Source of the DNA: Nocardioides piscis
GTDB lineage: Bacteria > Actinomycetota > Actinomycetes > Propionibacteriales > Nocardioidaceae
NCBI RefSeq assembly: GCF_011300215.1
Contig: NZ_CP049866.1
Coordinates: 186,001 to 250,000, forward strand
Direction of reading: 5' to 3'
DNA length: 64,000 nt
Below the pieces are notes generated by a model. It had not been told where the DNA came from and ran no database searches. It saw only the letters and a program-made list of their open reading frames with translations. The position numbers and the translations under genes were made by a program. Of the stretch, positions 55,768 through 61,140 are shown piece by piece. Each line of letters begins with the position of its first letter. The first letter of the stretch is position 1.

Positions 55768-56559
55768 TCAGATGCTGCGGACCAGGGTGATGCGCCAGGC
55801 CTCGGGACCCCGCTCGTTGTAGGTCACCGAGAAGGCAGCGGGCCAACGCTGTTCGAGCTGGGCCAGCAGCGGCAGCGGGTCGTGCGGGGCGACCAGCTCG
55901 AGACCGCCGCCCGGGCGGACGGACTCCAGAGCACCGAAGATCGTGGCGTGCCGGATCGCGTGCGGGATCGTCCGCACGTCCAGCTCAGGATGACCGGGAC
56001 CGTCGACCTCGCCGCAGGAGCAGGTGTGACCACCGCAGCCAGCCTCGGCGTCGCTGCCCTCTGTTCCTTCGGCATGACCGAGGAGCTCGTGCATGCCGCC
56101 CAGCAGGTCGTGGAGCGACACGTCGGGGGTGCGGGCCAGCAGCGGCACCAGCAGCTCGTTCTCCTTCGTCAGGTGGCTGTCGAAGACGGCTCGCAGCGCT
56201 GTCGCCGTCGCCGCAGCACGCACCGGGTCGGCGGCCTCGGACACCTGGCGCAGCAGCGAGGTGATCACGACGTGCTCACCGAGCATCGCCTCGACCAGCA
56301 AGCGGCCCTCGGTCGTCGCCTGTGCCACTGGATAGAGCGCCTTCTCCTCGGCCAGGGCGTGCGGCACGAGCTCACGCTCGCACCACTCCACGAGGTCCTG
56401 ACGAGCCTGCTCTGCCGCGGCCGGGTCAGGTCGCGAGGCAGCTGCCACCAGCTCTTCGGTGCGGAGCGCGAGGGCACCGGCCATCACCGCGTGGTGCTGC
56501 TCGACCGCTTCGGCTGCGTGGGCGTCGGCCTCGTTCGAGGCGATGACGAGTTCGGACAT
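55768..56559 (-). CDS. Hemerythrin / DUF2249 fusion
   Basis: A 263-residue protein. Residues about 15-150 are a hemerythrin HHE domain with His/Glu ligands spread over four helices (EQHHAVMAG, LVPHALAEEKALYP, MLGEHVVITSLL, FDSHLTKENELLVPLL). A Cys-containing linker (GCGGHTCSCG) leads to a C-terminal DUF2249 domain (about 188-263, LDVRTIPHAIRHATIFGALESVRPGGGLELV). Both domains recur in denitrification and NO-stress genes. AAGGAG precedes the ATG; it is divergent from the HTH regulator and NirK operon. Confidence 0.88.
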   Translation of the reverse strand: MSELVIASNEADAHAAEAVEQHHAVMAGALALRTEELVAAASRPDPAAAEQARQDLVEWCERELVPHALAEEKALYPVAQATTEGRLLVEAMLGEHVVITSLLRQVSEAADPVRAAATATALRAVFDSHLTKENELLVPLLARTPDVSLHDLLGGMHELLGHAEGTEGSDAEAGCGGHTCSCGEVDGPGHPELDVRTIPHAIRHATIFGALESVRPGGGLELVAPHDPLPLLAQLEQRWPAAFSVTYNERGPEAWRITLVRSI

Positions 56560-56605
56560 TTTCGTCTCCTTCGGGGGGAACTGTGCGTCGTACGAATGAT
56601 TTTAG

Positions 56606-56611
56606 TACACT
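56606..56611 (+). promoter_or_regulatory. -10 element TACACT before HTH regulator
   Basis: TACACT ends 7 nt before the GTG at 56619. GTAC repeats flank it (56590-56608) and could be an operator for the regulator itself or another NO/O2 sensor. Confidence 0.45.
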
Positions 56612-56618
56612 CTACTCC

Positions 56619-57332
56619 GTGGAAAATAATCGCCTCGCGCGCACCTCGCCACCCCCCGGTCACGGGCCCCGCCCGAGCAGCGGCCGGGTCCGGGCGCCAC
56701 TGTCCAGGTCACGCGCCTCGCTGCTCGACGCACTGCTGGCCCAGAACGAGCCGACCACCCTCGCGGCGCTCGTCGCCAGCTCCGGACTGCACGCCAACAC
56801 GGTGCGCGAGCACCTCGACGGTCTCGTCCGCGACGGCTACGCCCACCGCCGTACGGCCGCCCCCACCGGTCGGGGACGACCCGCCTGGCTCTATCAGGCG
56901 ATCGGCAGCGACGCGGCTGCGTCGCCGGAATATGCAGGCCTCGCCGCGGCCCTGGCCGCGACCATCCACCGGACGAGCAGCAACCCGGTCGAGGACGCCA
57001 CCGCCGCCGGCCGGGAGTGGGGCCAGGAGATCGCGCGCGAGCGTGGAGCCCAGCCCAGCTCGAGCGCGATCGCAGCGAGACGAGAGGTCGTCTCCCTGCT
57101 CGACGAGGTCGGGTTCGCCCCGCAGGCAGACGCCCGCAGCTCGGTGGTCCGGCTCACCCGGTGCCCGTTGCTGGAGGCGGCGAACAAATATCCCGACGTC
57201 GTCTGTGGTGTGCACCTCGGCCTCGCCCAGGGCGCACTCGAGGCGTACGGCGCCGACACCGAGGGCACCGAGCTGGTGCCGTTCGCCGAGCCCGGCGCCT
57301 GCCGCCTGCACCTGACGCGGCGTGACGCATGA
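56619..57332 (+). CDS. HTH regulator with possible Fe-S sensor cysteines
   Basis: A 237-residue regulator. The winged HTH (about 35-100) reads SRASLLDALLAQNEPTTLAALVASSGLHANTVREHLDGLVRDG. The C-terminal domain has Cys182, Cys196, His199 and Cys228, spaced like the cluster Cys of SufR-type regulators, so an Fe-S cluster sensing NO, O2 or iron is likely. It is the first gene of the NnrS-like/NirK operon (4-nt overlap), which it probably controls. GTG 56619 is chosen from the TACACT element 7 nt upstream. Confidence 0.87.
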   Translation: MENNRLARTSPPPGHGPRPSSGRVRAPLSRSRASLLDALLAQNEPTTLAALVASSGLHANTVREHLDGLVRDGYAHRRTAAPTGRGRPAWLYQAIGSDAAASPEYAGLAAALAATIHRTSSNPVEDATAAGREWGQEIARERGAQPSSSAIAARREVVSLLDEVGFAPQADARSSVVRLTRCPLLEAANKYPDVVCGVHLGLAQGALEAYGADTEGTELVPFAEPGACRLHLTRRDA

Positions 57333-58468
57333 GCACCGCGACCCGCACGCCGACAGTCACCGCGCGACCACGCGTCCCCGCCCCGCTCCTGCCTCGCCTC
57401 GCCCTGCTCGCGCCGGCCGGCTTCGCGCTGCTCGCCGGCCTGGACGCCGCCCTGCTCCTCCTCGGCCTGCCCGCGCCGGTGACGACCGACCGGTTGCCGG
57501 ACGCGCACGGGATGCTGATGGTCCTCGGCTTCGTCGGCACCCTGATCGCCCTGGAACGGGCCGTCGCGCTGCGACGCCCTCTCGGCTTCGTCGCCCCGGC
57601 ACTGCTCGGGCTCGGCGCCCTCGCTCTGCTGTCGCCGGCCCCGATGGTCCTCGGCAAGAGCCTCTTCACGGCCGGCGCCGCGGCCCTGGTCGCGTTGTAC
57701 GTGCCGCTGTGGCGTCGGCAGCGCGACGACGCGGTCCTGTGCCAGGCACTGGGGGCGGTGCTCGTCCTCGGAGCGGCGACGCTGTGGCTCGGCGGCGCGT
57801 CCGTCCCGGTCCTGGCGCCGTGGCTGGTCGGGTTCATCGTGCTGACCATCGCCGGCGAGCGGCTCGAGCTGGCCAGGTTGGCGATGGGCCCGGCAGCCGG
57901 CAGGACGCTGGTGCTGCTGGCGTCCGGGCTGGCGACCGGGGTGGTGGCCGCCCTGCTGTGGCCACGGCCCGGCACGGCGCTGCTCGGCGCGGCGCTGCTC
58001 GCGCTGACCGGGTGGCTGGCAGCCCACGACATCGCCCGGCGCACGATCCACACCACGGGCCTCCCCCGCTACATGGCGGCGTGCATGCTCGCGGGCTACT
58101 GCTGGCTCGGTGTCGCCGGCGCGATCTGGCTCCTGGACGGTCCGGCCCTCGACGGCGTGCGCTACGACGCGCTGCTGCACGCCGTGTTCCTCGGCTTCGC
58201 GTTCTCGATGATCATGGCCCACGCGCCGGTGATCCTGCCCGCGGTCGTGCGGCGCCCGCTGCCATACCACCGCGCACTCATCGGACCCGCCGTGCTGCTG
58301 CACGCCTCCCTGGTGCTGCGGTTGTGGGTGGGCGACGCCCTCGGCAGCCACGGTTCCTGGCTCACCGGCGGCGTCCTCAACATCGTGGCGGTGCTGTCCT
58401 TCCTGCTCCTCGCTGTCGGGCTGACGGTCCGCGGCGAGGCCGAGCCGGTCGGGGGTGAGCGGTCGTGA
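57329..58468 (+). CDS. NnrS-like polytopic membrane protein
   Basis: A 379-residue protein with about twelve hydrophobic segments. Conserved-looking His residues lie in DAHGMLMVLGFVG, in LLHAVFLGFAFSMIMAHAPVI and in LPYHRALIGPA, the kind of membrane His pattern seen in haem- or copper-bearing NnrS/CcoN-like proteins. NnrS relieves NO stress during denitrification. The assignment is moderate and rests on topology, His positions and coupling to the NirK fusion (GTGA overlap) and the HTH regulator (ATGA overlap). Confidence 0.75.
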   Translation: MSTATRTPTVTARPRVPAPLLPRLALLAPAGFALLAGLDAALLLLGLPAPVTTDRLPDAHGMLMVLGFVGTLIALERAVALRRPLGFVAPALLGLGALALLSPAPMVLGKSLFTAGAAALVALYVPLWRRQRDDAVLCQALGAVLVLGAATLWLGGASVPVLAPWLVGFIVLTIAGERLELARLAMGPAAGRTLVLLASGLATGVVAALLWPRPGTALLGAALLALTGWLAAHDIARRTIHTTGLPRYMAACMLAGYCWLGVAGAIWLLDGPALDGVRYDALLHAVFLGFAFSMIMAHAPVILPAVVRRPLPYHRALIGPAVLLHASLVLRLWVGDALGSHGSWLTGGVLNIVAVLSFLLLAVGLTVRGEAEPVGGERS

Positions 58469-61140
58469 CGCGGCCCGACAAGCGTGGCTTCTGGCCACTG
58501 CGCGACCTGCCGGTGCTGTTCTGGTTGGCCGCCACGGTCGTGATCACGCTGGTGCACCCGTTCGTGCCGGCGCCCCGCTGGCTGATGATCCACCTGCTGC
58601 TGCTCGGCGCAGTCAGCCACGCCATCCTGGTCTGGAGCAGATATTTCACCGACGCGCTCCTGCACTCGGCCGACGAGGACCGTCAGGGCCAGAACCGGCG
58701 ACTGCTCCTCCTCAACGGCGGCGTGGTCCTCGTCGTGGCCGGCGTCCCGTCCGACGTCTGGCTCCTGACCCTGGCCGGAGCGACCGCCGTCGCCACCGCT
58801 GTGCTGTGGCACGGCTGGACGATCCTGCGCCAGCTGCGGACAGCGCTCCCGGCCCGCTTCGGCCCGTCCGTCCGCTTCTATGTGGCGGCTGCGTGCTTCC
58901 TGCCCGTCGGGGCCGGCCTCGGCACGGCGCTCGCACGCGGGCTCGGCGACCCGCTGCACACCCGGCTGGCAGTCGCCCACGCTGCGGTCAACCTGCTCGG
59001 CTGGGTCGGCCTGACCGTCGTCGGCACCCTGGTGACCCTGTGGCCGACGATGCTCCGGACCCGGATCGCGGCTGGCTCCGAGCGGGCATCGGCCCGCGCC
59101 CTGCCGGTGCTGGTCGGCTCGATCGTCGTCGCGGCGGGGGGTGCAGGCGCCGGCCTGCGGCCCGTCGCCGCCCTGGGCATCGCGATGTATGTCGCCGGGT
59201 TGCTGGTGATGGCGCCCGCGTTCGCCGACACCCTGCGCCGCAAGCCGCCGTCATCGTTCCCCGCCTGGTCGGTGCTGGCCGGTGTCACCTGGCTGGTGGG
59301 CGCCCTGTCCACGCTCGGGCTGGGCATCGCGCTCGCCTCCTCCTGGCAGCGCGTGGACGAGGTGTTCGGCTGGCTGACGCCGTTCCTGGCCGCGGGCTTC
59401 GGCGCGCAGGTGCTGCTCGGCGCCCTGTCCTACCTCGTCCCGGTCGCCCTCGGTGGCGGCCCGACGCCCGTCCGGGCGGCCAGTGCGGTCCTGGACCGGG
59501 GCGCGCCCCTGCGGCTGGTCGCCGCCAACGCCGGCCTGCTGTTGTGCGCCCTGCCGGTGCCCAGCGTCGTGCGGGTGCTGGCGTCGGTGCTCGTCCTCCT
59601 CGCCCTCGGCGCAACGCTGCCGCTGCTCCTGCTGGCGGTTCGGGCGTCGCACCGCGCCAGGTCCGAGACACCGCCCGCGGACCGCGGCCGCACCCCGGAG
59701 ACGCACGGCCGGCCCGCCGGGCAGGTGGCCGGCCTGGCCGCGACCGGCCTCGCCCTCGCAGTCATGACGGTGGCCGTGGGCGTCGCCGTGGACCCCGCCG
59801 CCATCGGCGCCAGTGGTGGCGCCTCGGCGGCCGCGGGTGTTGCGGCCAGTGGCGGAACCACGACCGCGGAGGTGAAGGCGCAGGGCATGCGCTTCGTGCC
59901 CGACAAGATCTCGGTGCCGGCCGGCAACCGGCTCGTGATCGTGCTGACCAACACCGACGACGACGTCCACGACCTGGTGCTCGACACCGGGGCCGACAGC
60001 GGCCGCCTCACCCCCGGCGAGACCGCGCGCATCGACGTCGGCGTTGTCGGGCGCGGGCTCGAGGGCTGGTGCTCGGTGATCGGGCACAAGCAGATGGGCA
60101 TGGTGCTCGCCGTCGAGGTGACCGGCACCGCCATCCCCGCCGCTGACACGTCCGGGGACCACTCGTCCCACGAGCACGGTCCGGCCGGCAGCAGTGCCGG
60201 CCACTTCCCCGAGGTGGACGATCACGAGGACGACGCTGAGCTCGACGACACTGCGTCCACGCCGGCCACCGACCACCTCGACCTGATGGCCGACCCGGCA
60301 CCGGGCTTCGAGGCGCGCGACGCGACGCTGCCGCCGTTGCCATCAGGCCGGGTGCATCGCCGGACGTTCGTGGTCCGTGACGTCGAGCGAGAGGTCGCAC
60401 CTGGGGTGACCCAGCGGCTGTGGACCTTCAACGGGACCGCGCCCGGCCCGGTGCTGCGCGGTCAGGTGGGCGACCGGTTCGAGATCACCCTGGTCAATCG
60501 GGGCTCGATCGGTCACTCGATCGACTTCCACGCCGGAGCGCTGGCACCCGAGCGACCGATGCGGACCATCGCTCCGGGCAAGTCGCTCACCTACGAGTTC
60601 CGCGCGAACCGTGCAGGGATCTGGATGTATCACTGCTCCACGATGCCGATGTCGGCCCACATCGCCAACGGTCTGTTCGGAGCGGTGGTCATCGAGCCGC
60701 CCGACCTGCCCCGTGTGGACCGCACCTATGTGTTGGTGCAGTCCGAGCTCTTCCTCGGCGACCAGGGCGGAGAGGTCGACATGACCAAGCTCGCCGCCGA
60801 GGACCCCGACCTCGTCGTCTTCAACGGGGTCGCCAACCAGTACGACCACGAACCCCTGACCGCCCGCGTCGGCGAGCGGGTCCGGGTGTGGGTCCTCGAC
60901 GCCGGACCCAACCGTGCGACGTCGTTCCACGTCGTCGGCGGCCAGTTCGACACCACCTGGTCCGAGGGGAGCTATCTGCTCCGCCGCGGCACGGGTGGCG
61001 CCCAGAGCCTGGGACTGCAGGCGGCGCAGGGCGGGTTCGTGGAGCTGACCTTCCCCGAGGCGGGCGACTACCCGTTCGTCTCGCACGTCATGGTCGATGC
61101 CGAGCGGGGTGCCCACGGGTTGTTCCGCGTGGCGCGCTGA
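58465..61140 (+). CDS. nirK: Membrane domain-cupredoxin-NirK copper nitrite reductase fusion
   Basis: An 891-residue three-part protein. Residues 1-450 hold about twelve transmembrane segments, resembling the preceding NnrS-like protein. Residues about 470-560 are a cupredoxin with type-1 ligands His502, Cys536, His541 and Met544/546. After a His/Asp-rich linker, about 610-891 form a two-domain NirK: His684 (type 1), Asp687 and His689, then His723-Cys724 and His732, and His822 and His874. Type-2 copper and catalytic residues are complete. The axial type-1 Met is replaced by Leu737. It probably reduces nitrite to NO at the membrane's outer face. Confidence 0.88.
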   Translation: MTRPDKRGFWPLRDLPVLFWLAATVVITLVHPFVPAPRWLMIHLLLLGAVSHAILVWSRYFTDALLHSADEDRQGQNRRLLLLNGGVVLVVAGVPSDVWLLTLAGATAVATAVLWHGWTILRQLRTALPARFGPSVRFYVAAACFLPVGAGLGTALARGLGDPLHTRLAVAHAAVNLLGWVGLTVVGTLVTLWPTMLRTRIAAGSERASARALPVLVGSIVVAAGGAGAGLRPVAALGIAMYVAGLLVMAPAFADTLRRKPPSSFPAWSVLAGVTWLVGALSTLGLGIALASSWQRVDEVFGWLTPFLAAGFGAQVLLGALSYLVPVALGGGPTPVRAASAVLDRGAPLRLVAANAGLLLCALPVPSVVRVLASVLVLLALGATLPLLLLAVRASHRARSETPPADRGRTPETHGRPAGQVAGLAATGLALAVMTVAVGVAVDPAAIGASGGASAAAGVAASGGTTTAEVKAQGMRFVPDKISVPAGNRLVIVLTNTDDDVHDLVLDTGADSGRLTPGETARIDVGVVGRGLEGWCSVIGHKQMGMVLAVEVTGTAIPAADTSGDHSSHEHGPAGSSAGHFPEVDDHEDDAELDDTASTPATDHLDLMADPAPGFEARDATLPPLPSGRVHRRTFVVRDVEREVAPGVTQRLWTFNGTAPGPVLRGQVGDRFEITLVNRGSIGHSIDFHAGALAPERPMRTIAPGKSLTYEFRANRAGIWMYHCSTMPMSAHIANGLFGAVVIEPPDLPRVDRTYVLVQSELFLGDQGGEVDMTKLAAEDPDLVVFNGVANQYDHEPLTARVGERVRVWVLDAGPNRATSFHVVGGQFDTTWSEGSYLLRRGTGGAQSLGLQAAQGGFVELTFPEAGDYPFVSHVMVDAERGAHGLFRVAR

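Follow-up and report, generated by a model that had tools for sequence, protein, structure and literature searches.

An oxidase-like membrane domain joined to the copper nitrite reductase of Nocardioides piscis, with a candidate b-haem route for electrons

The window analysed here, a stretch of 64,000 nucleotides of Nocardioides piscis (contig NZ_CP049866.1, positions 186,001 to 250,000; all coordinates below are those of the window), contains a gene that joins a polytopic membrane domain, a type-1 cupredoxin and a NirK-type copper nitrite reductase, in this order, in one chain of 891 residues. What does the membrane domain do, and could it supply the enzyme with electrons? The paper describing such proteins (PMC4770552) gives the 400-residue domain no function. 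The architecture is already known; the new part is a lead on the function of this unexplained domain. The best reading, to which a probability of roughly 37% is given, is a membrane-bound, self-wired copper nitrite reductase, in which a putative b-type haem would deliver electrons to the cupredoxin and the cupredoxin to NirK. The gene and its parts are as follows.

58465..61140, forward strand: whole gene, membrane domain, cupredoxin and NirK (single open frame, GTG start)
58495..59664, forward strand: twelve-helix membrane domain, residues 11-400, very probably of haem-copper oxidase/nitric oxide reductase (NOR) subunit I fold (models, fold search)
59722..59790, forward strand: thirteenth helix, residues 420-442, predicted to take the chain to the outside (AlphaFold2 model, loop charges)
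59839..60123, forward strand: type-1 cupredoxin domain, residues 459-553, ligands H502, C536, H541 and M546 (Pfam, alignment, model)
60136..60264, forward strand: linker, residues 558-600, with a predicted local distance difference test score (pLDDT) below 50 at 558-595 (AlphaFold2 model)
60352..61134, forward strand: NirK core, residues 630-890, type-2 and catalytic residues complete (NCBIfam, PDB search, alignment, model)

That one polypeptide carries all three parts, as an earlier sequence-only reading of the locus had proposed, is borne out by the open frame, by the Pfam matches (Cupredoxin_1 at residues 459-526, Cu-oxidase_3 at 640-746), by the TIGR02376 and PDB matches and by an AlphaFold2 monomer model of the whole chain (mean pLDDT 90.3). 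The NirK model TIGR02376 matches residues 636-889 at 157.3 bits, below its curated equivalog cut-off of 296.3 bits, and the protein is placed in the actinobacterial class with transmembrane, cupredoxin and NirK parts instead. All matches listed in the PDB sequence search (60 of 190) fall within the NirK region, mostly to entries called nitrite reductase; the model of the whole chain has its best PDB counterpart in 2dv6, the NirK with an N-terminal cupredoxin of Hyphomicrobium denitrificans (E 2e-28). The model also embeds the N-terminal half in the membrane, as had been expected, and the "about twelve" segments of that reading hold for the domain itself; with helix 420-442 the total is thirteen. 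Loop charges alternate (lysine plus arginine 2.75-5.37 versus 0.11-1.47), which would put the copper domains outside, with the N-terminus on the inner side. Searches of Pfam and PDB with the membrane sequence gave no lead: no Pfam family covers this part, and the domain in the window has a single weak match to another family.

The lead came from the fold. The membrane domain matches subunit I of haem-copper oxidases and NOR over all 12 helices (383 of 395 residues, about 11% identity), so that on the models there is little doubt that it has this fold, and its ancestry is probably shared with that subunit. The family COX1 (PF00115) has no match in the membrane domain of the window and is absent among the matches listed for 76 members (25 of 31 families). 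In a local hhalign comparison, a profile mixed from 12 CcoN-like proteins of the phylum gave 86.7% (P 4e-6) for the domain read from its second repeat, a value reached with one of three repeat orders and then with one of six cut points, and standing at 53% before one protein (L159) was removed. The same profile gave locally 43.5% for the natural order and 12-35% for the third, and globally 95.1, 80.7 and 90.0% for the second-repeat, natural and third orders. Decoys, six cuts each of the reversed alignment and of the family of the upstream gene, scored at most 0.2% locally; reversed decoys against profiles of true CcoN and NorB proteins scored 0.1%, and A-type oxidases compared with the domain gave about 3%. 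The domain alignment used for family searches comprised 76 of 81 rows and that of the upstream family 54 rows. As side observations, seven proteins matching the ccoN model (L154-L158, L160 and L161) align with true CcoN at 100% in hhalign, yet have none of the six haem/CuB histidines and are thus ligand-free oxidase-like proteins, and at G003:C4:25265-25555 overlapping stretches match the ccoN model near transmembrane helix (TM) 10 (343-392) and the membrane domain near TM6 (121-186).

Four histidines of the domain separate what is common to the family from what belongs to the fusion.

58555..58557, forward strand: His31 codon, just past TM1 on the outer side, fusion-specific (81/81 fused, 0/47 stand-alone rows)
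58591..58593, forward strand: His43 codon, TM2, predicted haem ligand (81/81 fused, 46/47 stand-alone with one gap; profile alignments)
58810..58812, forward strand: His116 codon, TM4, mostly fusion-specific (80/81 fused, 1/47 stand-alone)
58978..58980, forward strand: His172 codon, TM6, predicted haem ligand (81/81 fused, 47/47 stand-alone; profile alignments)

Fused rows are the protein of the window and 80 loci, and stand-alone counts use 47 of 49 rows (E <1e-20). Since H43 and H172 are kept in both forms, they are the only two histidines common to the whole family; H43 is 6 residues from the outer end of TM2, and H172 is 8 from that of TM6. In every local alignment H172 pairs with the TM2 haem histidine. 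When the domain is read in shifted order, H43 pairs with the second histidine of the HxH motif and M41 with the first, F307 with the TM6 histidine, and L358 and L359 with the TM7 pair; this order also gives the longest alignment with the true set (338-346 columns versus 99-198). In oxidases these positions serve as haem or CuB/FeB ligands. There is no histidine in TM10 or TM11, and the positions aligned with the high-spin haem and CuB/FeB ligands are F307, L358, L359 and M41. By these alignments, the ligands of the binuclear site that reduces O2 or NO are absent from the domain. A consistent prediction is thus one bis-histidine b-haem (H43/H172) near the outer face, between the helices that frame the empty oxidase pore. 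With CcoN and NorB the domain shares the 12-helix fold, and two of its histidines may correspond to low-spin haem ligands, with which they align in the repeat-shifted register; unlike them, it has no high-spin haem or CuB/FeB ligands, only about 11% identity and no Pfam detection.

The copper sites downstream are well conserved in the ligand alignment of 81 rows (the window protein and 80 loci). The cupredoxin ligands H502, C536, H541 and M546 are identical in every row. The earlier assignment of His502, Cys536 and His541 stands; of its two methionines, M546 is the invariant axial candidate (81/81), M544 being kept in 76/81. In the NirK core H684, D687, H689, H723, C724, H732, H822 and H874 are identical in all rows. 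These include the type-2 ligands H689, H723 and H874 together with the catalytic Asp687 and His822, all present as had been read from the sequence, and the cysteine and two histidines of the type-1 site (H684, C724, H732). The type-2 and catalytic residues are equivalent to those of the Alcaligenes numbering. The substitution of the usual axial methionine of the type-1 site had been missed:

60673..60675, forward strand: Leu737 codon, type-1 axial position of the NirK core (alignment)

This position is methionine in 68 of the 81 rows and leucine in 13, that is, in the window and 12 further loci, all Nocardioidaceae by title. A leucine here probably gives a copper of higher potential than a methionine, and electrons would then pass to it more readily from the cupredoxin with its Met ligand. 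The axial methionine is not universal, the type-1 centres of TsNirK being coordinated by glutamine (PMC6400189). Glutamine also occupies the position in the NirK neighbours of the stand-alone domains at L115 and L130.

The sequence-only reading had left it undecided whether this exact plan is described. It is: Decleyre et al. (2016) reported an actinobacterial NirK of about 900 residues with a 400-residue transmembrane domain "of unknown function" and a CX4HX4M cupredoxin, a layout published for Propionibacterium acnes and other Actinobacteria (PMC4770552), and a 2017 paper gives the NirK of Corynebacterium pseudotuberculosis 882 residues with 13 predicted N-terminal helices (PMC5338063). The present protein agrees with this class in domain order, length, cupredoxin motif and NirK core, having 891 residues, 12+1 helices and CX4HX4M as C536, H541 and M546 in 81/81 rows; unlike the described class, the window and 12 Nocardioidaceae loci have leucine at the type-1 axial position. 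No family assignment for the membrane domain was found in the literature, most subscription journals being outside the search. The three-domain NirK of H. denitrificans (2dv6, 6tfo, 6tfd) likewise has a cupredoxin ahead of the NirK core, but differs in being a hexamer without a membrane domain (PMC7201279).

The same domain order had been proposed as something to look for across Actinobacteria. A scan of genome contigs gave 312 relatives among 372 candidate stretches, of which the best 80 were kept; each of these is one long frame with at least 831 bits to the query and the same domain plan, the closest being from Nocardioides, and 78 of the 80 bear actinobacterial names. The two others are L008 (Bacillus sp. 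AZ43, unverified) and L049 (Sporosarcina beigongshangi), which may be mislabelled; in the tree L008 falls together with Blastococcus L015, so for L008 at least a wrong label or a contaminating contig is likely. Among 833 plasmid records searched with tblastn, none covers 80% of the query.

In a set of 396 genomes drawn evenly from the phylum, the membrane domain occurs in 54. It is fused to cupredoxin and NirK in 8, including the genome of the window, and unfused in 45, through 49 loci, a fragment in G003 being left aside (the 49 loci cover 51 of 53 non-fused places; G003 and G347:C11 were omitted). A NirK with type-1 cysteine and histidines, type-2 and catalytic residues lies at most 600 bp from the stand-alone domain in 7 of the 49 loci (L101, L106, L110, L114, L115, L130 and L135; on the opposite strand in L130). 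Eight of the 49 loci have a cupredoxin no more than 500 bp away, as a small separate gene in four (L114, L121, L127, L130) and as part of a NirK or, in L100, of a multicopper oxidase protein in the other four. Candidate NirK neighbours in L100 and L120 were rejected, as these matches lack the cysteine and aspartate and look like multicopper oxidases. At L106 (8666-10414) and L110 (8196-9653) the adjoining NirK has a C-terminal cupredoxin of plastocyanin type, and at L104 a NosZ-like gene (nos_propeller) is found 2.7 kb from the stand-alone domain gene, with an Rrf2 regulator in between. A quickly built tree covered 78 rows, 33 of 88 fused and 45 of 49 stand-alone (E <1e-25). All 33 fused rows fall in a single group (support 97) that also contains the stand-alone row L098; the fusion may have a single origin, and we infer that separate genes came first and were fused later. 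One comparison of 20 loci used 19, the split gene L109 being omitted.

Upstream of the gene lie three further genes:

57329..58468, forward strand: 379-residue membrane protein, weakly NnrS-like (4/54 family members, best E 0.14)
56583..57332, forward strand: helix-turn-helix (HTH) regulator with an IclR-type HTH and a 4-base overlap with the next gene (Pfam, locus comparison)
55768..56559, reverse strand: hemerythrin-DUF2249 protein, divergent (Pfam, locus comparison)

The GTG start of the nirK gene shares 4 bases (GTGA) with the stop of the gene upstream, and because of the 4-base overlaps the HTH, NnrS-like and nirK genes are read as one operon; a promoter and terminator scan gave no lead. 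Counted anywhere in the fetched stretches, some of which end early, relatives of the NnrS-like gene occur in 70, of the HTH gene in 73 and of the hemerythrin-DUF2249 gene in 68 of the 80 loci. The suggested resemblance of the membrane domain to the NnrS-like protein is not supported: hhalign gave a probability of 5.5%, or 19% with a deeper alignment, and on these values the idea of the domain as a copy of its neighbour was rejected. NnrS (PF05940) has no match in the membrane domain of the window and is absent among the matches listed (25 of 31 families); a PF05940 search of the genome itself gave no match, but control genomes were also blank, so absence is not established.

The genome (3.78 Mb, one contig) has one NirK, a second TIGR02376 match of 36 bits being some other copper protein. 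It has one PF00115 match and a NarG match made of two abutting frames (model positions 7-743 and 745-1228), and the profile search gave no NosZ match; NO may therefore be the end product of nitrite reduction here, unless it is removed by other enzymes. The narG gene (G000:C1:606611-610248, L148, minus strand) is split in two frames by a frameshift or sequencing error.

According to the preferred reading, the 12-helix domain would be an oxidase/NOR relative with one bis-histidine b-haem held by H43 (TM2) and H172 (TM6). This haem would take electrons from the membrane pool, most likely from menaquinol, and pass them to the tethered cupredoxin outside; the cupredoxin would reduce the type-1 copper of NirK, and the type-2 copper would then reduce nitrite to NO. 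The passage of electrons from membrane to cupredoxin to NirK, already suggested from the sequence, is thus retained as the best reading, with some support from the oxidase-like fold and the two membrane histidines, while its single steps are conditional. Several observations weigh against it. Seven of the 12 proteins in the mixed profile have none of the six ligand histidines, and the five true ones alone give 1.1%. Against 14 true CcoN and 2 NorB-type proteins, whose ligands are complete except for one position in L189, local values are 21-22% in all three orders (shifted 21.8%), and against the 14 CcoN alone 28.5-28.9%, with P about 1e-3 for these true comparisons; the shifted order is thus preferred by score with the mixed set only. 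For both low-spin haem ligand positions a match is seen only when the profile alignment is repeat-shifted, and its score is modest; global alignments differ in register, some being natural, and the structural alignment, which runs in natural order, would place H43 on the TM2 haem histidine, with the TM10 partner absent. No quinol site was identified. In the H. denitrificans enzyme the N-cupredoxin copper lies about 24 A from the type-1 copper of the core, although pulse radiolysis indicates transfer between the two despite this distance (PMC7201279), and a mutant of the N-terminal copper showed higher activity (PMC4770552). Around the stand-alone domains, neither NirK nor cupredoxin is seen within 600 bp in 39 of 49 loci (some stretches end early), and molybdopterin oxidoreductases occur within 3 kb in 5 (L098, L105, L107, L112 and L123, in both orientations). 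Three of the 49 (L125, L131 and L134) have an NnrS-like gene at most 500 bp away, directly adjoining and without NirK, with HTH or hemerythrin-DUF2249 genes close by.

Alternatively, the cupredoxin could be fed by a respiratory partner, such as the cytochrome of the bcc complex, or by a small donor, the oxidase-like membrane domain only anchoring and docking NirK and any haem being vestigial. This is possible, if doubtful: in an Intrasporangium paper the Rieske protein of the bc1 complex stands upstream of NirK (PMC6349771), and an actinobacterial NirK with cupredoxin yet without the membrane domain is reported (PMC4770552), so that the domain is dispensable for some; in a mere anchor, however, one would not expect H43 and H172 to be kept so strictly, both with and without the fusion. 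The membrane domain might instead handle copper or NO, loading the enzyme with copper or shielding it from NO, for example, in the way proposed for NnrS, without carrying electrons. The stand-alone genes beside NnrS-like genes without NirK, the NnrS-like and divergent hemerythrin-DUF2249 genes of the window, and the fusion-specific H31 and H116, which could bind metal, speak for this; we consider it unlikely, because the fold is oxidase/NOR-like and the domain, though polytopic like its NnrS-like neighbour, has no clear profile similarity to that family. That the domain itself goes on to reduce the NO which the fused NirK releases, as a channelled NirK-NOR, is highly improbable, as no histidine aligns with the binuclear-site ligands and only two are conserved throughout.

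The preferred reading can be extended to the family, though this wider proposal is tentative and rather unlikely as a whole: actinobacterial NirK would be a single-chain menaquinol:nitrite oxidoreductase, its input domain an oxidase relative that has lost the catalytic site and holds one b-haem in a pocket empty in oxidases, and the same domain would serve in other actinobacterial classes as a free-standing, quinol-linked partner of cupredoxins, of NirK and perhaps of molybdoenzymes. With an oxidase/NOR fold recognised and two haem ligands predicted, the function of the domain becomes directly testable. If the reading is true, a single protein would connect the quinone pool with nitrite in Gram-positive denitrifiers, and the haem-copper oxidase fold would have been reused once more, as an electron-transfer cytochrome b without a catalytic site.

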